11,220 nt of DNA, taken from contig CAMPJY010000089.1 of NCBI GenBank assembly GCA_946887025.1, positions 1-11,220 on the forward strand. Reading direction: 5' to 3'. Shown piece by piece: positions 1-11,220 of the stretch. The stretch comes from an uncultured Salinimicrobium sp. (GTDB lineage: Bacteria; Bacteroidota; Bacteroidia; Flavobacteriales; Flavobacteriaceae). How positions within the stretch are numbered: the stretch's first letter is position 1; every line of letters starts with the position of its first letter. The translations under genes and the position numbers were made by a program. The notes beneath the pieces were generated by a model that worked only from the letters and a program-made list of their open reading frames with translations, did no database searches and had not been told where the DNA came from.

Positions 1-54
1 CCTTTTTAGTTTCCCCTCAATTCCCCCTTTTTATTTTCCCCTCAATTCCCCCTT
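1..54. repeat. 25-bp tandem repeat at the left edge
   Basis: Bases 1-25 and 26-50 are copies of one 25-bp unit with a single difference (G at 9, T at 34). The next four bases (51-54) start a third copy before the match breaks down. The unit is pyrimidine-rich on this strand and contains TTCCCCTCAATTCCC, so the minus strand is G/A-rich. The array may continue to the left. It lies upstream of the lipoprotein gene, and I see no hairpin or ORF in it. Its function is unknown; it could be a short variable-number repeat or the remains of an intergenic repeat family. Confidence 0.75.
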
Positions 55-116
55 CGGCTTACCGGAAATATTGCTGGTTGCCCTTGTGATGTATTATTAA
101 CTATAATTTAAATAAT

Positions 117-1202
117 ATGAAAAATTATTCTTTTACGGGGATTTTGTTGCTATTGGTCATGATGCTGGCCGGATGTACAAATGACAATTTATCTGAAATT
201 ACCGGCGAGGCGGCGGCCTTAAAAAATGATCCGGCTTCTCTTAAGGTGGAGGCTTCGGGTCTTGCAGGACCTTTATTTGATCTGGAAACGACACCCAATG
301 GAAATATACTCGTTGCAGATGCGACCAGGGGGATCACCGACCTTTATGGAAATGTTGAAGTCGCCCTTCCCGGAGCTACTTCTGTAAGTTCCGTTGGACA
401 GGGAATGATGTGGGTGACTACAGGCCCTGAAGGGGAAGGTATTAATGATGAGCGGCAGAGACTATACCGGGTTAACAAAAATCGCGTGGAGCAGGTGGTG
501 AATCTTTTCGAATTTGAATCCACCAATAATCCTGCTGGTGCAAGCGTAGACTCCAATCCTTTTTCCGTCAAAGCTTTAAATGGGAATGAAGCCCTGGTGG
601 CTGATTCGGGGGCTAACGTGCTGCTTCGGATAGATAAAAAAGGGAATATTGAGGTATTGGCGATCTTTCCTTCTGAAGAGGTTTCAACTGATAATATAAA
701 AAGTCTGGGAGGTTGCCCTGAATCCGGAGCAGCTTTTTGTAATTTACCGCCTACTTTGGTAGCACAACCTGTACCCACTTCAATAGCCATTGGTCCGGAC
801 GGGTACTATTATGTAGGGGAGTTAAAAGGTTTTCCCGCACCTACAGGGGAATCCAATATCTGGCGGATCTCCCCGGATGCCATGGGAGCTGAATGCGGAT
901 CTTCCGGGGATTGTGTGAAGCTTTTTGAAGGCGGATTCACCTCCATTATTGATATGGCCTTTGGTGACGATGGGAAGTTATATGTAGCAGAAATGGACGC
1001 CAATAGCTGGTTCGCTGTCGAGGCAGGCCTTGGGGCAGGGGGAAGGATTAAGGTCTGTGATCCTCAGACGCTCACCTGTGAGGTGGTAGCCGAAGGGATC
1101 CCGATTCTGACCTCCATTGTTTTTGACAAAGAGGGGAACCTTTGGGCTACCAGAAATGCTCTTGTTCCCGGTGGGGCTGAAGTAGTGAAAATTCCGCTAT
1201 AG
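117..1202 (+). CDS. ScyD/ScyE-family exported lipoprotein (beta-propeller-like)
   Basis: This 361-residue protein starts with a lipoprotein signal peptide: a short basic start, a hydrophobic run at about residues 8-18, then the lipobox LAGC with Cys20. It is therefore probably anchored in a membrane facing the periplasm or cell surface. The mature part has repeated blade-like motifs such as the TTPNGNILVAD segment (58-68), IGPDGYYYVGE (225-235), FGDDGKLYVAE (282-292) and FDKEGNLWATR (336-346), as in NHL/SMP-30-like propellers. The whole pattern fits the ScyD/ScyE family, named for cyanobacterial scytonemin cluster proteins; no scytonemin genes are seen here, so only family membership is claimed. 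Six cysteines in three close pairs (200/208, 260/266, 314/321) suggest disulfides in the exported domain. The ATG at 117 follows an A/T-rich leader without a clear Shine-Dalgarno. The substrate is unknown. Confidence 0.8.
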   Translation: MKNYSFTGILLLLVMMLAGCTNDNLSEITGEAAALKNDPASLKVEASGLAGPLFDLETTPNGNILVADATRGITDLYGNVEVALPGATSVSSVGQGMMWVTTGPEGEGINDERQRLYRVNKNRVEQVVNLFEFESTNNPAGASVDSNPFSVKALNGNEALVADSGANVLLRIDKKGNIEVLAIFPSEEVSTDNIKSLGGCPESGAAFCNLPPTLVAQPVPTSIAIGPDGYYYVGELKGFPAPTGESNIWRISPDAMGAECGSSGDCVKLFEGGFTSIIDMAFGDDGKLYVAEMDANSWFAVEAGLGAGGRIKVCDPQTLTCEVVAEGIPILTSIVFDKEGNLWATRNALVPGGAEVVKIPL

Positions 1203-1258
1203 ATTTATTCTTAATCAGAAGTCAGCAGCATTCTGATACAGGAAATGACAGGTTCTTT

Positions 1259-1287
1259 CGGAAAGAAAATCAGGTATTTTCTTTCCG
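1259..1287. other. Perfect 12-bp hairpin between the lipoprotein and peptidase genes
   Basis: CGGAAAGAAAAT (1259-1270) is the exact reverse complement of ATTTTCTTTCCG (1276-1287), with a 5-base loop CAGGT. It lies 57 bases after the lipoprotein stop and 78 bases before the peptidase start. No T-run follows on either strand, so it is not a textbook intrinsic terminator. It could weaken read-through, protect an mRNA 3' end or bind a regulator. Confidence 0.6.
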
Positions 1288-1364
1288 GGAGTATGTCATG
1301 TAAAGGAGGAAGAAATTATTTTTTCCTAATTTTAGGAGAATTCTAACAACCTGAACCTTTATTC

Positions 1365-3449
1365 ATGAAAAACTATCTCTGCCTGTTATCCCTGTTTTTT
1401 ATTTTTCTCAGTTTCCCATTGTCCGCCCAGGAAATTTCCATGGAGGATTTTGCGAAATTTTCCTTTCCCTCTGAGCTGGTGGCATCCGGAAATGGGGAAC
1501 AGCTGGCCTGGGCCATGAATGAACAGGGAAAAAGAAATATTTATCTGGCAAAAGGACCGGATTTTAATCCGAAGAGAATAACTGATTTTAATGTGGATGA
1601 CGGGCAGGAGATCAGCAGTCTGCAGTTTAGTCCCGATGGCAGCTTCCTGGTCTTCGTGCGTGGAGGCGACCATGGAGGCGGGAATGCCGAAAGGCCAGTG
1701 AATCCACTTCACCTGACTGATGAGCCTGAAGTGGAAATTTATAAACTAGATCTTGAGGATCTGAATCTGGAAGTGATCGGGGAGGGGGACGACCCGATAA
1801 TATCCGTGGAAAATCAATTGGCTTATGAGAAAAATGGGCAGGTGTGGGTTGCTGATCTGGAGAATAATGAGTCCACTGAACAACTGTTCGAAGTCAAAGG
1901 AAGAATGCATTCCCTGGAATTTTCTCCTGATGGGGAGAAGCTGTTATTCGTATCCGATAGGGGGGATTACTCCATAATCGGAGTTTTTGAAGAATCCCGG
2001 CCCATACAATGGCTTTCTCCCGGATTTTATTCAGATCAGAGTCCGCGTTGGTCTCCTGACGGCAAAAAGGTGGTATATGTCAGGACTCCCGGAGGGGATG
2101 GAGCTGCGCTACCTATTCTGGAACAAAGACACTCGCCCTGGGAAATCAGGATAGCCGATTTGGCTACGGGAGAAAGTTTCCAAAGATGGAAGGCGCCAGA
2201 GACTCTTCAAGGCTCTGTGCCTACTGTGGATGGGCGTTTTAATCTGCATTGGGCAGCCGATGATCGGCTGGTGTACCTCACCTATGAGGATGGCTGGCCT
2301 CATTTATATTCAATGGATGCTGAGGAGGGAGGGTCTGAACTGCTTACTCCCGGAGATTTTCATGTGGAACATGTAGAATTGAGTCCTGATGGGGAACGAT
2401 TGATTTTTTCTGCCAATGGAGGGCCTGAACCTCAGGATCTGGATCGGCGCCACATTGGACAGGTGGCTGTGGACGGGTCAGGTTTTGAATGGAGGACTAC
2501 AGGCGAAGGTATTGAAGCCCATCCGGTATTTTTGGGGGATGAGGGAGCCATTGCTTTTCTCAGTGCTACAGCCAAGCGACCTCTGCTACCGGCCGTTCAA
2601 AAGGATGGAAAGATTATGTTATTAGGGGAGGATCTTATCCCCGAGGAATTTCCTCAGGAAAAGATGGTGGTTCCCACACAGGTTTCTTTTCTGGCTCCTG
2701 ATGGCACCAAAGTGTATGGGCAGCTGTTCGAGAAGGAAGATGGTAGATCCGATAAACCGGGAGTTGTCTTTGTGCATGGAGGACCACAGCGACAGATGCT
2801 GTTGGGCTGGAGCTATATGGACTATTATTCCAATACTTACGCAATCAATCAGTATCTGGCGAATGCAGGATTTGTGGTGCTTTCGGTGAATTACCGCCTG
2901 GGAATAGGCTATGGCTATGATTTTCATAAACCCGCCGACACCTATTATAAGGGAGCGGCCGAATACCAGGACGTGAAAGCTGCCGGGGAATATTTAGCCG
3001 GCCTCCCGCAGGTCAATGCAGAGAAGATAGGCGTCTATGGCGGCTCCTATGGAGGTTATCTCACGGCACTTGCACTGGGGAAGGATTCTGATCTTTTTAA
3101 AGTGGGAGTGGATGTACACGGAGTTCATGATTTTGAAGGCAGGTATGATGTGCCCGAAGGTTTTGAGGTGGCTCCCGATTATGAGAAAGCCAAGGAGGTG
3201 GCCTGGAAATCATCGCCCTTTGCCTATCTGGACACCTGGAAATCCCCGGTACTTTTCATTCATGGAGACGACGACCGGAATGTGAATATCAGTCATACCG
3301 TCGATTTAATCAGAAGGTTTGATGAGAAAAACCTGCCTTACGAGTTCCTTATGGTTCCGAATGAAACGCATCACTGGATGAAGTTTTCAAATATGGTCAT
3401 GGTGGATGAGCATATCGTCAACTTTTTGGAAGAACATCTTCTGGATTAA
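1365..3449 (+). CDS. Secreted S9-family (prolyl oligopeptidase/DPP-like) serine peptidase
   Basis: This 694-residue protein has an N-terminal signal peptide (hydrophobic residues 4-20, likely cleavage near SAQ at 20-22), so it is exported. Residues of roughly 25-430 form a propeller domain with repeated PD40/WD40-like strands, for example FSPDGSFLVF, FSPDGEKLLF, WSPDGKKVVY and LSPDGERLIF. The C-terminal third is an alpha/beta hydrolase domain. HGGPQRQ forms the oxyanion region. The nucleophile elbow is GGSYGGY with Ser561. The acid is probably Asp637 in HGDDDRNV, and the base His669 in NETHHW. The complete triad and normal length suggest an active enzyme that removes dipeptides or cleaves peptides after particular residues; the specificity (DPP IV, acylaminoacyl or other) cannot be read from the sequence. 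It probably acts on peptides in the periplasm. There is no strong ribosome binding site before the ATG, which is common in this phylum. Confidence 0.92.
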   Translation: MKNYLCLLSLFFIFLSFPLSAQEISMEDFAKFSFPSELVASGNGEQLAWAMNEQGKRNIYLAKGPDFNPKRITDFNVDDGQEISSLQFSPDGSFLVFVRGGDHGGGNAERPVNPLHLTDEPEVEIYKLDLEDLNLEVIGEGDDPIISVENQLAYEKNGQVWVADLENNESTEQLFEVKGRMHSLEFSPDGEKLLFVSDRGDYSIIGVFEESRPIQWLSPGFYSDQSPRWSPDGKKVVYVRTPGGDGAALPILEQRHSPWEIRIADLATGESFQRWKAPETLQGSVPTVDGRFNLHWAADDRLVYLTYEDGWPHLYSMDAEEGGSELLTPGDFHVEHVELSPDGERLIFSANGGPEPQDLDRRHIGQVAVDGSGFEWRTTGEGIEAHPVFLGDEGAIAFLSATAKRPLLPAVQKDGKIMLLGEDLIPEEFPQEKMVVPTQVSFLAPDGTKVYGQLFEKEDGRSDKPGVVFVHGGPQRQMLLGWSYMDYYSNTYAINQYLANAGFVVLSVNYRLGIGYGYDFHKPADTYYKGAAEYQDVKAAGEYLAGLPQVNAEKIGVYGGSYGGYLTALALGKDSDLFKVGVDVHGVHDFEGRYDVPEGFEVAPDYEKAKEVAWKSSPFAYLDTWKSPVLFIHGDDDRNVNISHTVDLIRRFDEKNLPYEFLMVPNETHHWMKFSNMVMVDEHIVNFLEEHLLD

Positions 3450-3548
3450 TCCCAAATGATCAATTTGCTTAGTTGCTTTCACTTCATCGAAGAATCTTAC
3501 CGTTCATCTATAATTCCGACAAAAAGTATATAAATCAATGTTAATCTA

Positions 3549-3580
3549 TTGAAAAATTTCCTGTCTTCTGATTACATTTA
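3549..3580 (+). promoter_or_regulatory. Possible Bacteroidetes-type promoter before the small ORF
   Basis: TTG at 3549-3551 is followed by 21 bases and then TACATTTA (3573-3580), which matches the TAnnTTTG -7 element except at the last base. Transcription would start close to 3587, about 15 bases before the ATG at 3602. This is a weak match but well placed. Confidence 0.35.
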
Positions 3581-3601
3581 TAGGACAAATGTACCCCCAG
3601 A

Positions 3602-3700
3602 ATGAAGCGTTTCAAGATCAACAAAACGGTAGTTATTGCCACCCTGATATTTATTGCTGCCGCAGCCCTTTACTTTCAATATCTCATAACTCTTATTTAA
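3602..3700 (+). CDS. Possible 32-residue single-pass membrane peptide
   Basis: An ATG-to-TAA frame encodes a 32-residue peptide that begins with a basic stretch (MKRFKINK) followed by a continuous hydrophobic segment (V10 to about L23, then aromatic residues to the end). The basic-then-hydrophobic layout fits a one-helix inner-membrane peptide with its N terminus in the cytoplasm. A possible promoter sits just upstream. No Shine-Dalgarno is visible and I do not recognise a family. It could be a real small protein or chance; conservation in related genomes would decide. Confidence 0.45.
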   Translation: MKRFKINKTVVIATLIFIAAAALYFQYLITLI

Positions 3701-3826
3701 TAAGCAGGTTGCGATTTACCCGAAGTGCGAATCCATAGCCTAAATCCCAGGGCTCTGATCCGGGATCCCCTTGTTTCAACAAAAAGTTTATTTTATTGTT
3801 TGTGGCAGCCTCTGAGGGTATTTCTT

Positions 3827-3834
3827 TATTTTTG
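3827..3834 (+). promoter_or_regulatory. -7 promoter element before terC
   Basis: TATTTTTG matches the Bacteroidetes TAnnTTTG box and lies 24 bases before the TerC start codon, giving a short leader. A TTTG at 3799-3802 could be the -33 element, but the 24-base spacing is longer than the usual 19-21. Confidence 0.45.
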
Positions 3835-3858
3835 TTATAAAACCAGCCATTTTTCATT

Positions 3859-4590
3859 ATGGAAATATTTTTAGAACTCGACACCTGGATTGCCCTGCTT
3901 ACGCTGACCTTCATGGAAATAGTATTGGGGATTGACAACATAATCTTCATCTCTATTGTCGCAGGTAAACTTCCGGCGGACCAGCAGAAAAAGGCTCGCT
4001 TTTGGGGTCTTGGTCTGGCCCTTGTCATGAGGATCCTGCTCCTGTTAAGCATTACCTGGCTGGTGGGGCTTACGGAACCTGTGACCACCATCGCAGGATT
4101 CGAATTAAGCTGGCGCGATATCATACTTGCGGTGGGAGGGGTTTTCCTGCTGGTCAAATCCATCTTGGAGATCCACCACAAAGTGGAGGCGGTCGAAGAA
4201 CACGATTCTACAGGGGGCGCACCCAAAAAGATAAATGGATTTTCTTCTGCGATCCTTCAGATCGTTATGCTGGACATTATATTCTCCTTTGATTCCATTC
4301 TAACCGCAGTAGGTCTAACAGATCAGATCCTGTTAATGGTAATTGCTGTTATTGTATCCATAGTGGTGATGATGATTTTCGCCAAAGCCATAGGGGATTT
4401 CGTGAACAGATATCCCACAATCCAGATTCTGGCCCTGTCATTCCTTATCTTGATCGGCTTTATGCTGGTGGTGGAAGCCCTGCATACGCACGTTCCTAAA
4501 GGATATATCTATTTTGCCATCTTCTTCTCCCTAATCATTGAAATGCTGAATATTCGTTATCGGAAGAAAAGGGAATTGCCACACGGATAG
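3859..4590 (+). CDS. TerC-family integral membrane protein
   Basis: This 243-residue protein is almost entirely hydrophobic segments, about seven predicted helices. It carries the two TerC signature regions: MEIVLGIDNIIFISI (19-33, with acidic E20 and D26 inside a helix) and MLDIIFSFDSILTAVGL (137-153, with D139 and D145). The charged loop at about 105-125 joins the two halves, and a basic tail ends the protein. The family is named for tellurium resistance; characterised members in Bacillus and E. coli export manganese or help to supply metal to exported proteins. Metal transport across the inner membrane is the best guess, but the metal cannot be read here, and no other ter genes are nearby. 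The ATG at 3859 fits the promoter box just upstream. Transcription ends at the strong hairpin that follows. Confidence 0.93.
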   Translation: MEIFLELDTWIALLTLTFMEIVLGIDNIIFISIVAGKLPADQQKKARFWGLGLALVMRILLLLSITWLVGLTEPVTTIAGFELSWRDIILAVGGVFLLVKSILEIHHKVEAVEEHDSTGGAPKKINGFSSAILQIVMLDIIFSFDSILTAVGLTDQILLMVIAVIVSIVVMMIFAKAIGDFVNRYPTIQILALSFLILIGFMLVVEALHTHVPKGYIYFAIFFSLIIEMLNIRYRKKRELPHG

Positions 4591-4611
4591 GCCCCTGAGG
4601 TGGATGAAGTA

Positions 4612-4654
4612 ATAAAGCCGAACCAGCTGTTTCAACCTGGTTCGGCTTCTTGTT
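4612..4654. terminator. Strong intrinsic terminator, probably bidirectional
   Basis: AAGCCGAACCAG (4615-4626) pairs exactly with CTGGTTCGGCTT (4637-4648): a 12-bp GC-containing stem with a 10-base loop, followed on the plus strand by CTTGTTTT. It lies 24 bases after the terC stop. On the minus strand the stem is followed by TTTATTA, so it may also end the convergent operon whose last stop codon is at 4672. Confidence 0.88.
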
Positions 4655-4671
4655 TTACGCGGGGGTGATTT

Positions 4672-5250
4672 CTACTCTATGGAGTACAGGATAGGCTTAA
4701 AGCTCCCGTTGTTGCTGTCTTCTGCAGAACAGGCGGTGAGGCCTACGATCAGATCCATTTGCGCTTCAAAAAGAACATGATCACCTGCCTTGCTTAATGG
4801 AGGTTCCACCGTAAGTTTCCCGTTCGGGTTAAACTGTACGTTCATGAAAATATTAAAAGCCGTGGGAATATCATCGGGTTCGATCCCGTAATCCTTCAGG
4901 TTCGTATACAGGTTCTCAAAGCAGCTGGGATGGTATCCCTGGTGCTGATACATGATCTCAAAGGTTTCCTTGCTGCAGGGGGCAAGGAGAAAATCGTTCC
5001 TCCCATTGGTGTCCTCCAGAATCTTCATCATTTTCTGACTCCGATTGCTCCAAAGGAAATTGCCTTTGCTGATCAGGATGCTCTCCTCAAAATCCAGGGT
5101 CTTTCCGGAGGATAATTTTTCCCTTTTATCCAAAGCATTAAAAAGAACCATATCGCTTACCTGTTCCCCCTCTGGATCAATCACCTTTAGTTTCTGTCCC
5201 TTTTTCAGTTCGAAGGCAGCCCCGGACTGCTTGTTTATCTTAAATTCCAT
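4672..5250 (-). CDS. DUF1989 / urea carboxylase-associated family protein
   Basis: Starting at the ATG at 5250, this is a 192-residue protein. An upstream GTG at 5271 would add seven basic residues and is less likely. Family hallmarks are GEQVSDMVLFN (28-38), YHPSCFENL (106-114, with H107 and C110), FNIFMNV (132-138) and SKAGDHVLFEAQMDLIVG (153-170) followed by LTACS with C174; the conserved His, Asp and Cys residues are plausible metal or catalytic positions. DUF1989 proteins accompany urea carboxylase, and a pair called CgdA/CgdB acts as carboxyguanidine deiminase in guanidine breakdown. This window shows only one such subunit and no carboxylase, so its substrate is open. It overlaps the upstream FMN-binding gene by 11 bases, which indicates translational coupling, and is the last gene of its operon. 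Confidence 0.85.
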   Translation of the reverse strand: MEFKINKQSGAAFELKKGQKLKVIDPEGEQVSDMVLFNALDKREKLSSGKTLDFEESILISKGNFLWSNRSQKMMKILEDTNGRNDFLLAPCSKETFEIMYQHQGYHPSCFENLYTNLKDYGIEPDDIPTAFNIFMNVQFNPNGKLTVEPPLSKAGDHVLFEAQMDLIVGLTACSAEDSNNGSFKPILYSIE

Positions 5251-5854
5251 GTTCTTTCTGGATTTCTTCACTAAGTTTTTCTGCTAATGGGTCCCCGGTT
5301 TCTCTAAGATGTCGGACCACTGAATCAACGTCTTCCTTTTCATATCCCTGATGCAATTTGGCAATCCCTTCCATATGCGTGGGTTCACACCAGAATCCGG
5401 TGATCTGGGGAAGGTGCTCCCTGAGCATGTCTTTTGGAATATTCTTATAAAAAAGAGGAGCTGCCTGTTCCTTTTCAAAATGTGCCACCAGTTCCTCGAG
5501 ACAATATTCCAGCTCCGCCTTTGTCTGAAGCCTTATTCGGACGTTTACATGTACTGCGGAATAATCCCAGGTGCTGATATTCTTTTCGCGATACCAGGAG
5601 GAGGATACATAGGAATGAGCCCCTTGAAAAATCACCAGGGCCTCTGTTCCATCCTTCAGGGATCGGAACTGCTCATTGTGATTCGCCATATGAGAAAAGA
5701 GTTTGAAATTGTCGGCCTTGCCTTTCAGGAGGAAGGGCAGATGCGTAGCCACTAGTCGGGTGTCCTGAGTTACAAAGGTGGCGAAAGGATGCTGTTTTAT
5801 AAAATCCAGGAAATAGGCTTTATCAGTCTTCTGGTATTTTTTTGGCTGGTACAT
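5240..5854 (-). CDS. PaiB-like FMN-binding split-barrel protein
   Basis: This 204-residue protein matches the PaiB family along its length: THLPF (37-41), HMANHN (55-60), FQGAHSYVSSSWY (76-88), STWDYSAVHV (94-103) and ITGFWCEPTHMEGIAKLHQ (151-169). The fold is a flavin-reductase-like split barrel. In Bacillus, PaiB acts with the polyamine acetyltransferase PaiA and is described as a negative regulator of sporulation and protease genes, hence the family name; direct DNA binding is not evident from the sequence. No helix-turn-helix is obvious here, so an enzyme or flavin-carrier role is equally possible. Its ATG at 5854 lies inside the YqcI/YcgG gene (32-base overlap), and its own end overlaps the DUF1989 gene, so all three are probably made together. 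Confidence 0.88.
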   Translation of the reverse strand: MYQPKKYQKTDKAYFLDFIKQHPFATFVTQDTRLVATHLPFLLKGKADNFKLFSHMANHNEQFRSLKDGTEALVIFQGAHSYVSSSWYREKNISTWDYSAVHVNVRIRLQTKAELEYCLEELVAHFEKEQAAPLFYKNIPKDMLREHLPQITGFWCEPTHMEGIAKLHQGYEKEDVDSVVRHLRETGDPLAEKLSEEIQKEHGI

Positions 5855-6533
5855 GTTCTAAATTTTTGTGAAGGAAAGGACATTTCCAATCTTCTCCAAC
5901 TTTTCTTCCACTATACTGCCTGGCTTCACTGCCTTCATTAAAATCCTGGAGCATTGGGTTAAGGTTGCCCTGAAGTTCAATATCGCGTTCGCGTATCCTT
6001 TGTTTGACCTGCTCGTATCTCCCCTTATTGCGAAGATTCTCAAACTGCGAATGCAGATTGAATGCAATGGCGGGATAAGGAGCCTGCCGTGCTTTTCGGG
6101 AACTATTTGGATGAAGACCTACCATGTAGAAGGCATGGCCCCCAAGGCTGAAGCTGAAGTCGGCGGCTTCGGGATCCTGATTAACTTCCGGATCCCAGGG
6201 AATGTCATCCGCTTCATGAAGAAACTGGAGTTGTTTCCATAGTAACTGCTCAAATTCCTCCTCAGAATAACTGATTTTTCCGTCAAATACGGCAAGAAAA
6301 GTATAAACCAGATCTGTCTCCTCATCATAAGATTTAAGGTAGTTCCTCAGGTCCTGAAGCAGCAATTCAGCGGTTGACCGGGAACCTAACTCCGGATAGA
6401 CATGAAAGTCCAGATTGTCTCCCCCAAAGACGGCCTGTGCCATAATACATGGATGATCCCCGACGACAATAAATTCCTCAAATTCCTGTAAAATTTTTGA
6501 CTCTTTGGGTTCCTCCTTTATTTCCGATCGCAT
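5823..6533 (-). CDS. YqcI/YcgG family protein, DcsA/GntA-like heme-dependent N-hydroxylase
   Basis: This 236-residue protein has the YqcI/YcgG signature: DHPCIMAQ (26-33), the charged segment around EFEQLLWKQLQFLHEAD (93-109), the long conserved core beginning GGHAFYMVGLHPNSSRKAR (131-149) and continuing YPAIAFNLHSQFENLR (153-168), QGNLNPMLQDFNEG (188-201), and WKCPF (216-220) near the end. Characterised relatives are heme proteins that hydroxylate guanidino nitrogens: DcsA makes N-hydroxyarginine for D-cycloserine and GntA acts in guanitoxin synthesis. Similar chemistry on arginine, agmatine or another guanidine is therefore likely but not proven; several His and Cys residues in the core could serve the heme. 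It has normal length and is intact. It heads an overlapping three-gene operon with the PaiB-like and DUF1989 genes. No D-cycloserine or guanitoxin pathway genes are nearby. Confidence 0.85.
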   Translation of the reverse strand: MRSEIKEEPKESKILQEFEEFIVVGDHPCIMAQAVFGGDNLDFHVYPELGSRSTAELLLQDLRNYLKSYDEETDLVYTFLAVFDGKISYSEEEFEQLLWKQLQFLHEADDIPWDPEVNQDPEAADFSFSLGGHAFYMVGLHPNSSRKARQAPYPAIAFNLHSQFENLRNKGRYEQVKQRIRERDIELQGNLNPMLQDFNEGSEARQYSGRKVGEDWKCPFLHKNLEHVPAKKIPED

Positions 6534-6674
6534 AACCTCAACTGTTTTGGTAATTCAATAAAACTAAATTGTTTCCTAGTAAATGCGTAGTGTATTCAGA
6601 GAGCTTTAATGAATTTATAGGAGTTCTTTAACACGGGGAGGTATCCAACCCTAACTATGGTGAACTGATGTAAC

Positions 6675-6941
6675 TCATTCCTTGTCGTCGTCATACCTGA
6701 ATATGAGGTAAAGCATGAGGCTGTTCAGCAAAAGGGCAGTTCCGTTCGTGGCGATTATTGGGAAATCGTTTTTAATGATCCCGTACACGACCCATAGGGC
6801 GAGGCCTGTTACCAGTACGAAGAACATCCCCGGAGAAACATCTTCCACCTCCTTTGTCTTCCAGGCTTTCAAAAGCTGAGGCACTACAGCAGCTGTCGTG
6901 CAGATTCCTGCTACCAGCCCTAGAATATTGGTCCAATCCAA
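6675..6941 (-). CDS. SemiSWEET-type small sugar transporter
   Basis: This 88-residue protein has three predicted membrane helices (about 5-24, 38-56 and 61-82), exactly one MtN3/saliva/PQ-loop unit. The PQ motif is at 21-22, in VVPQLLKAWKTK, and W50 and N66 lie where this family has its substrate-facing Trp and Asn. Bacterial SemiSWEETs work as homodimers that let sugars cross the inner membrane down their gradient; the sugar here is unknown. The reading frame has no ATG at its start: the frame is closed by a TAA 27 bases upstream, and TTG at 6941 is the best start because helix 1 begins directly after it. No Shine-Dalgarno is visible. It lies between the SDR gene (94-base gap) and the YqcI/YcgG gene (141-base gap), so joint transcription is possible but not shown. 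Confidence 0.9.
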   Translation of the reverse strand: MDWTNILGLVAGICTTAAVVPQLLKAWKTKEVEDVSPGMFFVLVTGLALWVVYGIIKNDFPIIATNGTALLLNSLMLYLIFRYDDDKE

Positions 6942-7035
6942 ATTATGTGGTTTAGAGGTTTGGGGATTTTAGTTGTTCTTTTTTGTTTTTGGGTTTCTGG
7001 TGTTTTTCCAGAATTAAATCCGTTCTGACGCTGTT

Positions 7036-7884
7036 TTAGCCGCCAATCATTTCGCCTCCGTTTACATGCATTACCTGTCCCGTCATATAGCTGCTGTCCT
7101 CACAAGCCAGATACACATATGCAGGAGCCACCTCACTTGGCTGGCCTGCCCGACCCATGGGTACGTCCTGTCCGAATTTGGTCACATCGTCAAAGGTGGC
7201 GGGGATCAGCGGAGTCCAAATGGGTCCCGGAGCCACTCCATTGACCCTGATCTTTTTCTTGGCCAGCATGGAGGAAAGGGAACGCGTAAAAGCGGTGATG
7301 GCTCCCTTGGTGCTCGAATAATCAAGTAAATGACTGCTGCCACGGTAGGCGGTAACGGAAGTGGTGTTGATAATGCAGTCTCCTTCCTTCAGGTGGTTGA
7401 GGGCTTCCTGAACCGTATAGAAATATGGATAAATATTTGTTTCAAAAGTCGTCTTCAGCTGCTCCTGTGAAATTTCCTGAGGAGAATTTTTCGGAAACTG
7501 CATGGCGGCGTTATTCACCAGGATATTCAGGCCGCCAAGTTTCTTCACGGTTTCCTTCACCACCTTTTTACAAAATGCCTCCTCCTTCAGGTCCCCTTCG
7601 AGCAACAGACATTCCTGCCCGGCTTCCTCCACCATTGCTTTTGTTTTCTCCGCATCCTCATCCTCGGCGAGATAGACTATGGCCACCTTGGCCCCTTCTT
7701 TGGCAAAATGTACAGCGACGCTGCGGCCTATTCCGCTGTCCCCTCCTGTGATTAGGGCGACTTTGCCTTCCAGTTTGCCGCTGCCTTTATAGTTTTTTCT
7801 GATGATCTCCGGCTCCGGGTGCATCTTCTCCTGCTTTCCCGGTTGTGATTGCTTCTGATCCGGAAATTTCTTCGGCTTGCTCAT
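7036..7884 (-). CDS. SDR-family oxidoreductase (general-stress YdaD/YhdF-like)
   Basis: This 282-residue short-chain dehydrogenase has the full classical set: the cofactor glycine motif TGGDSGIG (46-53), D98 at the adenine pocket, NNAA (124-127), and catalytic Ser176, Tyr189 and Lys193 (YSSTK), followed by PGPIWTPL (219-226). It uses NAD(P)H, with an unknown alcohol or carbonyl substrate. The hydrophilic 40-residue N-terminal extension, rich in Lys, Pro and Gln, is typical of the subgroup that includes Bacillus general-stress proteins such as YdaD. The ATG at 7884 is preceded by a purine-rich GAAGGAAAAG that can serve as ribosome binding site. The gene is divergent from the flavoprotein gene, with 172 bases of shared upstream DNA. 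A role in osmotic or oxidative stress is inferred from family members only. Confidence 0.92.
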   Translation of the reverse strand: MSKPKKFPDQKQSQPGKQEKMHPEPEIIRKNYKGSGKLEGKVALITGGDSGIGRSVAVHFAKEGAKVAIVYLAEDEDAEKTKAMVEEAGQECLLLEGDLKEEAFCKKVVKETVKKLGGLNILVNNAAMQFPKNSPQEISQEQLKTTFETNIYPYFYTVQEALNHLKEGDCIINTTSVTAYRGSSHLLDYSSTKGAITAFTRSLSSMLAKKKIRVNGVAPGPIWTPLIPATFDDVTKFGQDVPMGRAGQPSEVAPAYVYLACEDSSYMTGQVMHVNGGEMIGG

Positions 7885-8015
7885 ATGCTTCTTTTCCTTC
7901 TAAATTAGAAAACAGGCCTGAGGTTCAGTTCCGTTTAAGAAAGATTTAGCTTGATATTTAACAAAGCAGAAAAACCAGTTTCCCCACTTTCAAGCCGTAA
8001 GGCAATAAAAATAAA

Positions 8016-8023
8016 TACCTTTG
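8016..8023 (+). promoter_or_regulatory. -7 promoter element before the flavoprotein gene
   Basis: TACCTTTG is an exact TAnnTTTG match. Transcription would start near 8030, leaving about 27 leader bases that include the ribosome binding site at 8045-8052. No good -33 TTG is seen at the usual distance. The box covers the possible TTG start at 8021, which argues against that start. Confidence 0.55.
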
Positions 8024-8056
8024 CGCCTGAAAAGACTAACGGGCAAAGGAGAAAAA

Positions 8057-9301
8057 ATGACAGAACAGGATATTCTGATAATCGGCGGCGGGGCAGCCGG
8101 ATTTTTTACGGCGATAAATGCCGCCGAAATGAATCCTGCAGCCAGGATAAGTATTCTGGAAAGGGGGAATGAGGTGCTGAATAAAGTGAAGATCTCCGGT
8201 GGCGGCAGGTGTAATGTCACCCATGCGGAATTTGATCCCAGACAGCTGACAAAGAATTATCCAAGGGGCGAAAAAGAACTTCGCGGGCCCTTCCATTCCT
8301 TTATGACGGGGGATACCATCGCCTGGTTTGAATCAAAGGGAGTGGAGCTGAAGATCGAAGAGGATGGACGGATGTTTCCCGAAAGTAACTCTTCGCAGAC
8401 GATCATTGACTGTTTTCTTGAGGAAATTGAGCGGCTGGGAATTCAGCTTCTTAAAAAACATTCAGTTCAGGATATTTCGTGGGAGAATGGGAAGTGGAGA
8501 GTAAAAACAAAAACCTCCGATTTCACTGCCTTGAAACTGGTGATTGCCACAGGGAGTAATCCGAAAATATGGAACCTGCTGGAGAAGCTGGGCCATTCCA
8601 TAGTACCGCCTGTTCCATCGCTATTTACTTTTAATGTCAAGGATACCAGGATCAAAGATCTCCCCGGAGTGGCCACCCCGGCAAGCGTAAAGATCTTGGG
8701 TGAAAAACTGGAAACTGAAGGCCCTCTCCTCATAACCCACTGGGGGATGAGTGGCCCCGCCATTTTGAAATTGTCAGCCTGGGGTGCAAGGGAGCTGAGT
8801 GAATTGCCGGAATTTGAAATCCAGGTCAACTGGCTTTTGGACACAAGAGCTGAAGATGTAGTGTCTGAATTGAAGGACCTGAAACAGAAGTATCCGAAGC
8901 AGCAGATATTGAAATATTCCCAGCTTGGACTACCAAAACGCTTATGGCAGAACCTGATTTCCGCAACAGGGATTACTGACGATTTCCGCTGGGCCGATCT
9001 CAGCAATAAACAAATAGCAGAGATGGCAGAAGAACTGACTGCAGGGGTATTTAAAGTTCATGGAAAGAGTACTTTTAAAGAAGAGTTTGTCACCGCAGGG
9101 GGAGTGGATCTGAAGGAAGTGAACTTCAAGACTTTTGAGAGCAGGATTCATAAAAACCTATATTTTGCAGGAGAGGTGTTAAATATAGATGCCATCACGG
9201 GCGGTTTTAATTTCCAGAACGCCTGGACCGGAGGATACCTGGTGGCACGGGCTGTATCTGAGGATTTAAATTGTTTAGTCATAGTGCCAGCGGCACGTTA
9301 A
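8057..9301 (+). CDS. BaiN/YhiN/HI0933-family NAD(P)/FAD-dependent oxidoreductase
   Basis: The ATG at 8057 gives 414 residues and is chosen because AAAGGAGA (8045-8052) is correctly placed before it; the TTG at 8021 lies in the promoter box. Domains: an N-terminal dinucleotide-binding motif IGGGAAGF (9-16), the family motif KVKISGGGRCNVTH (43-56), THWGMSGPA (227-235) in the inserted barrel domain, and the C-terminal FAD motif FAGEVLNIDAITGGFNFQNAW (370-390). These are unambiguous for the HI0933/YhiN flavoproteins; BaiN of gut Clostridia is a proposed member in bile-acid reduction, but the usual substrate of the family is unknown. The protein is expected to be cytoplasmic. The last residues (about 402-414) look unlike the family end and are encoded inside a palindromic repeat element, suggesting that insertion of the repeat replaced the original stop codon. 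Confidence 0.93.
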   Translation: MTEQDILIIGGGAAGFFTAINAAEMNPAARISILERGNEVLNKVKISGGGRCNVTHAEFDPRQLTKNYPRGEKELRGPFHSFMTGDTIAWFESKGVELKIEEDGRMFPESNSSQTIIDCFLEEIERLGIQLLKKHSVQDISWENGKWRVKTKTSDFTALKLVIATGSNPKIWNLLEKLGHSIVPPVPSLFTFNVKDTRIKDLPGVATPASVKILGEKLETEGPLLITHWGMSGPAILKLSAWGARELSELPEFEIQVNWLLDTRAEDVVSELKDLKQKYPKQQILKYSQLGLPKRLWQNLISATGITDDFRWADLSNKQIAEMAEELTAGVFKVHGKSTFKEEFVTAGGVDLKEVNFKTFESRIHKNLYFAGEVLNIDAITGGFNFQNAWTGGYLVARAVSEDLNCLVIVPAAR

Positions 9302-9456
9302 TTTAATAGCCCCGGGTGGAGCCCCTCAGAGCTGTGTAGTGTGGGGTGCCTTTTCTACAAAGATTTGCTCTTCCAGGGCTTTTTTTGCCTCCAGAGGAGG
9401 GACATCTTTGTAGAAATTTACCTTCCACCACCTCCAGCTCCGTAGGAGCGGCACTT
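9271..9456. repeat. Palindrome-rich, REP-like multi-hairpin element
   Basis: Three short hairpins share one design, a 5-bp stem with a 3-base loop: GTGCC-AGC-GGCAC (9284-9296), CCTCC-AGA-GGAGG (9388-9400) and GCTCC-GTA-GGAGC (9437-9449). Between them, TTTCTACAAAGAT (9352-9364) is a perfect 13-base inverted repeat of ATCTTTGTAGAAA (9404-9416), enclosing a T-run. AGCGGCAC occurs in the same direction near both ends (9289-9296 and 9447-9454). The element fills the gap between two convergent genes and reaches into the last codons of the flavoprotein gene. It resembles REP/BIME-type non-autonomous repeats moved by TnpA-REP (RAYT) proteins; no transposase is present, and the copy number in the genome cannot be seen. 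It may also end transcription from both sides. The outer limits are approximate. Confidence 0.7.
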
Positions 9457-9462
9457 TTTCGA

Positions 9463-9939
9463 TTACATATTCAACCTCCAGATCTCAAAATTCAATACCA
9501 GCACGAAAAGCACCCATACTACATAGGGATACAGGAGGTAAGCGGCGGTGTCAGTCACGATCTTAAACCACTTTATGGTATAGAGGACGAGAATCAAAAG
9601 AGCCAATGCATTCAGCAACCCAAACATGGTGTTCTGCAGCCCGAAAAAGAAAATTGGCCAGGAAGCCGTCAATATAAGCTGAAAACCGAAATGATACAGG
9701 GCTACCTTTACCCATTTGTGATAAAATCCTTTGCTCCAAACAAGTCCTGCTGCAATTCCCATGAGGATATAACTGAAGGCCCATCCAATTCCAAAGGCCA
9801 ATTTGGAAGGTGTAAAAAATGGTTTTTCAAGGGCAGCGAACCAACCATTCATGGCGGCTTCAGTCGCTGCAGACGACAGGAAACCTATTAAAAGGCAAGC
9901 GGCTACGACAATCGAGCACCTTATCAGCTTTTTCTTCAT
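9463..9939 (-). CDS. tspO: TspO/MBR family membrane protein
   Basis: Starting at the ATG at 9939 this is a 158-residue protein, the usual TspO size; a GTG at 9957 would add only six residues. It has five predicted membrane helices. Family features are GWFAALEKPFFTPS (32-45), W53 and YILMGIAAGLVW (57-68) in helix 2, QLILTASWPIFFFG (87-100) in helix 3, LNALALLILVLY (109-120) and the end NFEIWRLN (150-157). TspO proteins bind porphyrins and sterol- or isoprenoid-like ligands and affect tetrapyrrole and carotenoid regulation or stress responses; the exact activity is debated. The gene is divergent from the diphosphomevalonate decarboxylase gene with a 92-base gap, so the two may share control. 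Confidence 0.93.
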   Translation of the reverse strand: MKKKLIRCSIVVAACLLIGFLSSAATEAAMNGWFAALEKPFFTPSKLAFGIGWAFSYILMGIAAGLVWSKGFYHKWVKVALYHFGFQLILTASWPIFFFGLQNTMFGLLNALALLILVLYTIKWFKIVTDTAAYLLYPYVVWVLFVLVLNFEIWRLNM

Positions 9940-10008
9940 TGTGGTCAGTTGGTCCACTAAATTAAGAATTTATTTGAATTGACTGTAAACCCCTTAAAAA
10001 GTAAAATT

Positions 10009-10016
10009 TATCTTTG
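10009..10016 (+). promoter_or_regulatory. -7 promoter element before the decarboxylase gene
   Basis: TATCTTTG matches TAnnTTTG exactly. Transcription would begin near 10023, only about nine bases before the ATG at 10032. The TTG start at 10014 would lie within the box and is excluded. No standard -33 TTG is found at 19-21 bases. Confidence 0.55.
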
Positions 10017-10031
10017 CCCAAATCCTTTTCA

Positions 10032-11117
10032 ATGACCACAGCCGATTTTGTTCCGACAGCTTATTCAAATGACCTTTCCCATGGGGAAGTGACCTGGCAG
10101 GCTCCTAGTAATATTGCTCTGGTAAAATATTGGGGCAAGAAGGTAAACCAAATCCCGGCGAACCCTTCCATCAGCTTTACGCTGGATTCCTGCCGTACTA
10201 CCTCAACCCTGAGCTTTCGGAAAAAAGAAAAGCAGGATTTAGAGTATGACTTCGAATTGTGGTTTGAGGACGTAAAAAAGGAATCCTTTCGCCCTAAAAT
10301 TGAACAGTTTTTCCAGAGGACAGAGCAGTACCTGCCATTTTTAAAGGATTACAGATTTATAATTAAAACTTCCAACAGCTTCCCTCACAGCAGCGGGATT
10401 GCCTCCTCGGCCAGCGGGATGAGTGCTCTGGCGCTTTGCCTTATGAGCCTTGAAAGAAAATTAAATCCTGATATGACGGAAGCACATTTCCTGAATAAGG
10501 CTTCTTTCCTGGCGCGTCTGGGGTCGGGGAGTGCTTGCAGAAGTATAGAAGGCGAACTGGTGGTCTGGGGAGCTCACAAAAATATTAATGGCAGCAGCGA
10601 CCTTTTTGGAACAAAATATCAAGGGGAAGTTCACGCTAATTTCCAAGACTTCCAGGATACCATCCTCCTGGTAGACAAGGGGGAAAAGCAGGTAAGCAGC
10701 AGCCTGGGGCACGACCTTATGAATGGGCATCCCTTTGCTGAAAAGAGGTTTCAGCAGGCGCACGAGAACATTATTAAACTAAAAAAGATATTTAAATCCG
10801 GGGATCTGGAGGAATTCGTTAAGGTTGTGGAGAGTGAGGCCCTTACCCTGCACGCTATGATGATGACGGGGCAGCCTTATTTTCTGCTGATGAAACCAAA
10901 CACTCTTGAAATCATTAACAGGATCATGGAATTCAGGAATTCCAGCGGCCTGAATCCCTGCTTCACCCTGGATGCCGGAGCCAATGTTCACCTGTTGTAT
11001 CCAGAAAACGAGAAATCAGCTGTTCAAAAATTCATTCAGGAAGAACTGTCGCAATTCTGCCAGAATGGGCAATATATTAACGATCGGGTAGGAAATGGGG
11101 CACGGGAATTGAATTAA
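10032..11117 (+). CDS. mvaD: Diphosphomevalonate decarboxylase (mevalonate pathway)
   Basis: From the ATG at 10032 the protein has 361 residues. It is a GHMP-kinase-fold enzyme: APSNIALVKYWGKK (24-37) with NPSISFTLD (44-52) forms the substrate region, FPHSSGIASSASG (117-129) is the ATP phosphate loop, RLGSGSACRS (162-171) carries the conserved Ser and Arg, and FTLDAGANVHLLYP (311-324) carries the likely catalytic Asp314. It converts mevalonate diphosphate plus ATP to isopentenyl diphosphate with loss of CO2, supplying isoprenoids such as menaquinone and carotenoids. Flavobacteria commonly use the mevalonate route. Related decarboxylases act on mevalonate phosphate or 3,5-bisphosphate, and the family in Bacteroidetes is often labelled for both, so the exact substrate is slightly open. 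Other mevalonate genes are not within the window but may follow downstream. Confidence 0.92.
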   Translation: MTTADFVPTAYSNDLSHGEVTWQAPSNIALVKYWGKKVNQIPANPSISFTLDSCRTTSTLSFRKKEKQDLEYDFELWFEDVKKESFRPKIEQFFQRTEQYLPFLKDYRFIIKTSNSFPHSSGIASSASGMSALALCLMSLERKLNPDMTEAHFLNKASFLARLGSGSACRSIEGELVVWGAHKNINGSSDLFGTKYQGEVHANFQDFQDTILLVDKGEKQVSSSLGHDLMNGHPFAEKRFQQAHENIIKLKKIFKSGDLEEFVKVVESEALTLHAMMMTGQPYFLLMKPNTLEIINRIMEFRNSSGLNPCFTLDAGANVHLLYPENEKSAVQKFIQEELSQFCQNGQYINDRVGNGARELN

Positions 11118-11154
11118 AGAAATTTCATTTCTAATCCCTATGTTGTTGAGGTAG

Positions 11155-11184
11155 TTGTGGTTTCAAAGAAGTGCCGTATATTTG
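11155..11184 (+). promoter_or_regulatory. Strong Bacteroidetes-type promoter at the right edge
   Basis: TTG (11155-11157), exactly 19 bases, then TATATTTG (11177-11184) fits the Bacteroidetes primary sigma consensus at both elements. Transcription should start near 11191 and read rightward. An ATG occupies the last three bases (11218-11220) and could be the start of the next gene, with a leader of about 27 bases and no clear Shine-Dalgarno. This also suggests that the gene after mvaD has its own promoter. Confidence 0.72.
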
Positions 11185-11220
11185 TAGCGTACAGCTAAAA
11201 ACTGACGCATTGAAATAATG

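Follow-up and report, generated by a model that had tools for sequence, protein, structure and literature searches.

A conserved pairing of YqcI/YcgG and DUF1989 genes, encoding a predicted N-hydroxylase and a predicted metal enzyme, in Salinimicrobium and other bacteria

Which of three overlapping genes in a flavobacterial genome belong together, and which reactions could their products perform? The genes lie on the minus strand of an 11,220-nt stretch from an uncultured Salinimicrobium sp. (GCA_946887025.1, contig CAMPJY010000089.1, positions 1-11,220), here called the window, and encode, in this order, a YqcI/YcgG family protein (YcgG for short), a PaiB-like protein, and a DUF1989 protein. 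The original prediction, made from the sequence alone, described them as a tightly coupled trio that could oxidise a guanidino compound. The claimed overlaps of 32 bp (YcgG/PaiB, 5823-5854) and 11 bp (PaiB/DUF1989, 5240-5250) were confirmed with ATG (5250) as the DUF1989 start; the longest form of this open reading frame (ORF) begins with GTG at 5271 and would give a second overlap of 32 instead of 11 bp, and the ATG form was preferred because relatives in alignment A1 fit it. Since the genes overlap, we infer that they form one transcript.

When species genomes were scanned with the window YcgG, 50 loci were obtained, chosen by similarity, from Bacteroidota, Pseudomonadota, Actinomycetota, and Verrucomicrobiota. 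DUF1989 was located at most 700 bp downstream of YcgG in 46 of them; among the four exceptions, L010, L027, and L044 are without DUF1989 (the first two lie in genomes with a second YcgG), and L048 is cut by the contig end. At the class level YcgG is patchy, being present in 2 of 198 genomes, the query genome included, and sampling of the whole class was therefore too sparse to be of use. The association was also seen in 299 genomes of the Flavobacteriaceae (the family of Gramella), a sample chosen independently of similarity: PF08892 (YcgG) and PF09347 (DUF1989) were each found in 37 genomes and both in 35 (Fisher 8e-41, a value inflated by shared ancestry, as are the other Fisher and tree figures given here), with YcgG only in G353 and G382 and DUF1989 only in G236 and G424. 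Thirty-four of the 41 YcgG matches (one of the 34 a broken copy) are followed by DUF1989 on the same strand at a distance of no more than 700 bp, while one has it 3.2 kb downstream and one 4 kb upstream. For 149 genomes of the Sphingomonadaceae (the family of Novosphingobium), the corresponding numbers were 63, 77, and 62 (Fisher 3e-26); 63 of 67 YcgG genes directly precede DUF1989, one more has it 1.8 kb upstream, and 48 of the 53 other DUF1989 genes are arranged in tandem pairs.

Plasmids carry the pair as well. A YcgG relative occurs in 35 plasmid records, in 17 of them at 37% identity or more, and DUF1989 adjoins YcgG in 14 of these 17, Deinococcus included. In one of the 14 the DUF1989 gene is frameshifted, and in another the YcgG gene is broken in two; DUF1989 is not next to YcgG on two Streptomyces plasmids and one from Rahnella. 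Nine of the 18 weaker records were inspected, and one, from the archaeon Halomarina, has DUF1989. On this plasmid (Halomarina sp. BND7, L102, 1243-4651), an asparagine-synthase-like gene, DUF1989, and YcgG are consecutive, so that the pair is reversed relative to bacteria. Two single loci may be mentioned here: in Hymenobacter volaticus (L092, 6647-7209), the DUF1989 gene beside YcgG is split over two frames and unannotated, and on a plasmid of Chryseobacterium sp. SNU WT5 (L083, 5953-12624), ligD and a gene for the synthetase of cyanophycin, an arginine polymer, come after the pair, which may be chance. An apparent YcgG-DUF1989 fusion (L026, L071) came from reading past a stop and was rejected.

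The YcgG and DUF1989 partner trees, built from 83 rows after exclusion of duplicates, of partial, broken, and distant copies, and of loci without DUF1989, correlate with r 0.78 (0 of 1000 permutations). The order is not due to chance, because it recurs in well over a hundred genomes, and the reversed archaeal order, together with the spread across phyla and plasmids, argues against mere inheritance of one block. DUF1989 is the only partner common to all samples. The conserved unit is YcgG plus DUF1989, which adjoin each other in members of at least five bacterial phyla, rather than the trio originally proposed: the expected clustering of three families proved very strong for these two (34/41 and 63/67) but did not extend to PaiB, which lies between them in only 9 of 34 close pairs. 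The Bacillus subtilis control genome holds all three Pfam families (PF08892, PF04299, and PF09347), presumably in the gene order ycgG-ycgH-ycgI. A search of the open-access literature listed no paper that mentions DUF1989 alongside YcgG, YqcI, or guanitoxin; the pair seems to be undescribed so far.

The window YcgG matches PF08892 with 202.8 bits (cut-off 27). Its AlphaFold2 model, with a predicted local distance difference test (pLDDT) value of 86.6, matches five entries of the enzyme AglA, best 9ubb with a template modelling (TM) score of 0.77 and E 2.8e-11, followed by the next unrelated structure only at E 0.26. According to PMC12866846, from which the AglA site roles are taken, Cys44 ligates the haem in AglA. 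In the profile alignment from which the residue correspondences were read, Cys29 of the window protein occupies the Cys44 column and is invariant in all 30 members of A3, and Arg149 falls on Arg166, a propionate contact. The pocket residues Phe152 and Phe182 of AglA stay aromatic, as Tyr136 (Tyr in 20 and Phe in 10 of 30) and Phe164 (30/30), while Gln177 and Arg179 are replaced by Asn159 and His161 in 30/30. The claim of a haem N-hydroxylase homologue thus agrees with alignment and model, and the window YcgG is a predicted thiolate-haem N-hydroxylase. In the papers considered here, the YcgG members of described activity, such as AglA and ChmN, work on guanidino groups, although the activity of DcsA lacked in vitro confirmation; since two pocket residues are replaced, it is the family that suggests a guanidino substrate for the window protein.

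A more specific identity is offered by the NCBIfam equivalog model NF041366, under which the first gene would be the true GntA of the guanitoxin pathway, since the protein scores 306.7 bits against a cut-off of 145. The same model matches 30/30 sampled YcgG relatives from several phyla at E <=1e-10, most of them adjoining DUF1989, and therefore tells little about function. Moreover, in a Pfam scan of ten window proteins no other guanitoxin-pathway gene was recognised, and we give this identity almost no credence. Plasmid records from Chryseobacterium to Streptomyces also carry the guanitoxin name for YcgG. The label is not evidence of toxin production, and the name is applied too widely.

The AlphaFold2 model of the DUF1989 protein (pLDDT 95.2) matches 3siy with a TM score of 0.92. 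It was compared with a small control set of five UAAP2, four UAAP1, and one trimethylamine N-oxide (TMAO) demethylase (Tdm) sequences. The Cys92 and Cys110 columns hold Cys in the UAAP2 and Tdm controls and Ser and Ala, respectively, in UAAP1; the Cys174 column holds Cys in UAAP2, Tdm, and two of the four UAAP1 controls. By analogy with solved or assayed relatives, these three cysteines would bind zinc. The positions Asp53, Ala176, Asn180, and Lys185 distinguish the YcgG-linked proteins, which form one clade on a tree with several long branches (31 linked rows, namely 27 picked from the 83 plus four new ones, against 15 others comprising UAAP1/2, Tdm, and two more; one change, support 94). The DUF1989 proteins of the window, of L139 and L032, and of the archaeal L102 all remain under the UAAP1, UAAP2, and Tdm NCBIfam cut-offs, the window protein scoring 120.8 against 284.7 and 86.5 against 205.95 bits with the UAAP1 and UAAP2 models, whereas control genes, tandem controls from two genomes among them, pass these cut-offs. 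This suggests a distinct class of DUF1989 proteins for which no assigned function was found.

Of the characterised DUF1989 enzymes considered here, one acts on a derivative of guanidine and another on an N-oxide, and the second case provides an alternative for the pair: YcgG could N-oxygenate an amine or amidine, and DUF1989 could demethylate or cleave the N-oxide in the manner of TMAO demethylase. His107, present in 96% of linked DUF1989 rows, is common to the Tdm control and three of the four UAAP1 controls and absent from the five UAAP2 controls, and PMC12560246 gives Tdm His276 as an iron ligand; the two changed pocket residues of YcgG would also suit another substrate. On the other hand, described YcgG enzymes act on guanidino groups, with the reservation for DcsA given above, and the GcvT-like domain of Tdm is missing from the window protein, so that we consider a non-guanidine substrate improbable. 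The likeness to Tdm consists in the three-cysteine site and the Asp33 and His107 columns; the window protein has 192 amino acids and PF09347 only, while the Tdm model has 763 positions and covers DUF1989 and GcvT.

For the core of the operon, we lean, if only slightly, towards an N-hydroxylase acting on a guanidino or similar nitrogen compound, YcgG, coupled to a DUF1989 enzyme that cleaves the N-hydroxy product. YcgG would N-hydroxylate its substrate with electrons from a housekeeping reductase, and DUF1989 would then hydrolyse or cleave the product at the three-cysteine metal site. The analysis itself shows how the genes are ordered and that this order is conserved, that the two families co-occur, which folds the models have, and that the ligand positions are kept; haem on Cys29, zinc on the three cysteines, and the sequence of N-hydroxylation first and cleavage second would follow from solved or assayed relatives. 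The initial view of a haem N-hydroxylase homologue coupled to a DUF1989 protein is thus supported, with an intact metal site in the latter, whereas the trio as the unit and a flavoprotein electron supplier in its middle are not.

The scheme of an oxygenase followed by a hydrolase is already known; what seems new is the pairing of YcgG with DUF1989. With the YqcI/YcgG enzymes AglA, ChmN, GntA, DcsA, AmbT, and Mhr24, the window protein shares the Pfam family, the predicted fold, the haem-cysteine position, and Arg149 at Arg166, but it differs in its DUF1989 partner, in two of four pocket residues, and in having no visible biosynthetic cluster around it, none being recognised among the ten scanned window proteins, as the original prediction had stated. 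DcsA and DcsB offer a YcgG protein and a following hydrolase acting on an N-hydroxyguanidine, as is predicted here; their pathway reportedly makes D-cycloserine, and DcsB is said to be an arginase-fold enzyme, whereas in the window DUF1989 takes the place of DcsB and the neighbourhood has no recognised antibiotic genes. The carboxyguanidine deiminase CgdAB, whose subunits we take to correspond to the UAAP1 and UAAP2 models, shares the DUF1989 fold and, in UAAP2, the three-cysteine metal site; it is encoded by tandem genes, while the window has a single DUF1989 gene with other residues at conserved positions, and no carboxylase was found beside it among the ten proteins scanned. MgdH and MgdL (methylguanidine hydroxylase and lyase) follow the same logic of an oxygenase and a dedicated enzyme breaking the oxygenated guanidine, but, according to PMC12508155, they use other protein families, C-hydroxylation, and control by a guanidine riboswitch.

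Several observations weigh against the N-hydroxylation and cleavage scheme. Two AglA pocket residues are replaced throughout the alignment, no guanidine riboswitch was found in the window or in 22 loci at the Rfam gathering threshold, and five Flavobacteriaceae YcgG genes have no DUF1989 on their contig. Most pairs are without PaiB, an ATP-grasp-like gene follows the pair in some bacteria, distant YcgG subfamilies have other neighbours, and shared ancestry enlarges the statistical figures. The known RNAs detected in the 22 loci were three tRNAs and one Flavo-1 only, with none in the window.

A more elaborate version of the preferred scheme, which we think distinctly unlikely, would be a widespread pathway of everyday bacterial metabolism, standing by itself and with three metal centres: a P450-like thiolate-haem YcgG that N-hydroxylates arginine or another guanidine, a homomeric zinc DUF1989, and a second haem protein that removes N-hydroxylamine, together resembling a split nitric oxide synthase (NOS) unrelated to NOS itself. 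Here DUF1989 would split the N-hydroxyguanidine, giving a ureido compound together with hydroxylamine or nitroxyl (HNO), and would add a third functional class to those of carboxyguanidine deiminase and TMAO demethylase.

What, then, is the place of the PaiB-like protein? The middle gene had been assigned to a flavoprotein, possibly an electron supplier. This finds no support in its solved relatives, since PaiB and piperazate synthases (PZS) bind haem, the latter using the corresponding His, Thr, and Lys (PMC13274692). The structural relatives of the window protein are 2ol5 (E 4.7e-19), NohD 9oqs (1.4e-17), and 9qlk (2.1e-10), NohD being an N-hydroxylamine dehydratase going by PDB entry names and a reference title. 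His55, Ala57, Asn60, Thr95, and Lys166 are invariant in 13/13 linked members (A2). His55 aligns with His of PaiB 2ol5, NohD 9oqx, and 9kea, and the equation of His55, Thr95, and Lys166 with His61, Thr102, and Lys173 of PZS relies on constant numbering offsets of 6-7. Because haem-clan residues are retained, haem is a likelier cofactor of the protein than flavin. It thus shares the family and the His/Asn/Thr/Lys positions with PaiB, NohD, and PZS, but clusters with YcgG and DUF1989. Two residues after the His it has Ala57, like PaiB 2ol5 and NohD 9oqx, and in none of the 13 members the Asn typical of piperazate synthases, which is found in NohD 9oqw, in 9kea, and in SbPZS (His61 and Asn63; PMC13274692).

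PF04299 as a whole family was dropped as a marker of YcgG, as it is present in 182 of the 299 Flavobacteriaceae genomes; only a close subfamily tracks YcgG. Relatives of the window PaiB in these genomes split into two groups with a gap between 203.8 and 127.9 bits, and, with the dividing line set there after the scores were seen, the close subfamily is present in 13 of 37 YcgG genomes and in 0 of 262 others (p 1.9e-13). Nine of the 13 have it between YcgG and DUF1989, two about 2 kb upstream, and one, G311, about 95 kb away; in one further genome, PaiB directly follows YcgG and LigD-like genes precede DUF1989. By-eye reading of L122 (G012, 2003-4532) shows three LigD-like pieces as separate genes between PaiB and DUF1989. 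Presence of PaiB between the two genes takes four changes on the YcgG tree, two of them forced by well-supported branches, and five on the DUF1989 tree. As the close subfamily occurs only in YcgG genomes yet is missing from most pairs, PaiB looks like a dispensable, lineage-restricted third gene tied to the pair.

In operons that have it, the PaiB-like protein would likely act as a dehydratase on an N-hydroxyl intermediate or by-product, because His55, Thr95, and Lys166 align with the haem clan, while Ala57 agrees with PaiB and one NohD entry and not with the N-N synthases. There is some chance, though a smaller one, that it is instead a non-catalytic haem- or flavin-binding regulator of the operon. 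According to PMC13274692, PaiB, originally regarded as a regulator, is a haem-binding protein that reportedly lacks N-N bond-forming activity despite carrying PZS-type residues; the many pairs without PaiB would fit such a role too. The invariance of the Thr and Lys positions in 13/13 members and the occurrence of the subfamily with YcgG even at the distance seen in G311 speak against it.

The surroundings of the pair bear on a different explanation, in which the reactions run in the opposite order or serve synthesis: DUF1989 would make the substrate or clear a side product, and YcgG would make an N-hydroxy metabolite that is joined, exported, or used directly. The known YcgG enzymes are biosynthetic (PMC12866846, introduction), and in Halomarina the asparagine-synthase-like gene and DUF1989 come before YcgG. 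An ATP-grasp-like gene of about 360-390 amino acids lies about 1.45 kb downstream of YcgG in 7/51 loci (L039, L041, L042, L043, L046, L047, and L050, in Lysobacter- and Rhodanobacter-type bacteria and a Verrucomicrobia metagenome-assembled genome), which favours a role in biosynthesis for these organisms, with weak Pfam matches that were below the cut-off in two of three genes tested. Finally, a LysE-type exporter is encoded near two YcgG genes without DUF1989.

Flank families were counted in two sets. In Bacteroidota (150 of 164 flank ORFs, from 23 of 25 loci), YetF (12), SemiSWEET (9), MgtC (5), and short-chain dehydrogenase/reductase (SDR; 4) recur, with Ku, LigD, and DUF892 occasional, and this recurrence hints at a stress-survival island; a SemiSWEET ORF cluster was present in 13/51 loci, the window included. 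The second set, with one Bacteroidota locus and otherwise other phyla, comprised 84 of 183 ORFs in 15 of 24 loci after removal of short ORFs and of every plasmid locus; it has no Pfam family in more than two flank ORFs, ATPgrasp_TupA being found in two. Apart from the ATP-grasp cases, no ligase or nonribosomal peptide synthetase family appears among the 25 most frequent families of either set (the best 25 of 103 and of 63), and LysE is annotated in none of 11 inspected annotated stretches holding the pair. A synthetic or reversed pathway is, in our estimate, rather unlikely, and the operon probably allows a nitrogen metabolite to be used or disposed of, during ordinary metabolism or under stress, rather than an antibiotic or toxin to be made.

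YcgG genes without DUF1989 have neighbours of several kinds. In haloarchaeal plasmids (L104-L108, YcgG at about 3908-4660), sulfotransferase, adenylyl-sulfate kinase (cysC), and YcgG form a row in 5/7 inspected loci, a possible N-hydroxylate-then-sulfate pathway. In Natrinema, YcgG is accompanied by a hydrolase of another kind, annotated as cysteine hydrolase, which we count in favour of cleavage after N-hydroxylation. On a conjugative plasmid of Rahnella sikkimica (L095, 5773-11058), YcgG is followed by SDR, a 2Fe-2S protein, a LysE exporter, a PheRS-beta-related protein, and MOSC, a row that looks like a small biosynthetic cluster. Gramella- and Gillisia-like genomes (L010, L027, L044, and L126-L128) have YcgG without DUF1989, in three cases with a second copy; as judged by eye, L126 and L128 adjoin apparent glycosyltransferase genes, and the YcgG genes of the DUF1989-less genomes G353 and G382 (L124, 4186-4908; L125, 4409-5140) lie inside apparent polysaccharide loci.

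In the window, a SemiSWEET transporter gene and an SDR gene are located upstream on the same strand, and a convergent TerC gene downstream; Gramella sp. AN32 (L001) has the identical order SDR, SemiSWEET, YcgG, PaiB, DUF1989, TerC. The hairpin between DUF1989 and TerC, which none of 200 shuffles equalled in stability, may be the end of the operon; a simple terminator scan of the region found three sites against 2.9 in shuffles, thus no excess, and no match to the Bacteroidetes-type promoter motif was found. Elsewhere in the window, positions 117-1202 hold a ScyD/ScyE-family gene (205.6 bits, cut-off 80), a name that derives from cyanobacteria, far from the host of the window. Features are listed in Table 1.

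Table 1. Features of the operon region in the window, with predicted roles
Feature	Position	Strand	Evidence
YqcI/YcgG gene, 236 amino acids, predicted thiolate-haem N-hydroxylase	5823..6533	-	PF08892 E 7.6e-60; NF041366; AlphaFold2 model vs AglA
Cys29 codon, predicted axial haem ligand	6447..6449	-	aligned with AglA Cys44; invariant 30/30 (A3)
PaiB/FMN_bind_2 gene, 204 amino acids, predicted haem protein of the PaiB-NohD-piperazate synthase clan	5240..5854	-	PF04299 E 3.8e-44
His55 codon, predicted haem ligand of the PaiB-like protein	5690..5692	-	invariant 13/13 (A2); aligned with His of 2ol5, 9oqx, 9kea
DUF1989 gene, 192 amino acids, predicted zinc-site hydrolase or lyase acting after YcgG	4672..5250	-	PF09347 E 4e-58
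Cys92 codon, predicted zinc ligand 1	4975..4977	-	invariant 26/26 (A1) and 83/83 linked rows
Cys110 codon, predicted zinc ligand 2	4921..4923	-	invariant 26/26 (A1) and 83/83 linked rows
Cys174 codon, predicted zinc ligand 3	4729..4731	-	invariant 83/83 linked rows
Hairpin 3' of DUF1989, possible operon end	4614..4649	-	13-pair stem, -23 kcal/mol, z -4.8
SemiSWEET transporter gene directly upstream, operon membership unsure	6675..6941	-	NF037968 102.6 bits, cut-off 80

The YcgG enzymes in the papers considered here belong to the synthesis of antibiotics, metallophores, or toxins, while in the genomes sampled here the usual form is a stand-alone pair with DUF1989, found in varied bacteria and on plasmids. 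This is also a warning that the guanitoxin name is too broadly assigned in NCBI records. An orphan class of DUF1989 proteins and the many proteins named GntA gain a testable joint function, for which an assay combining the two enzymes should give a clear answer.

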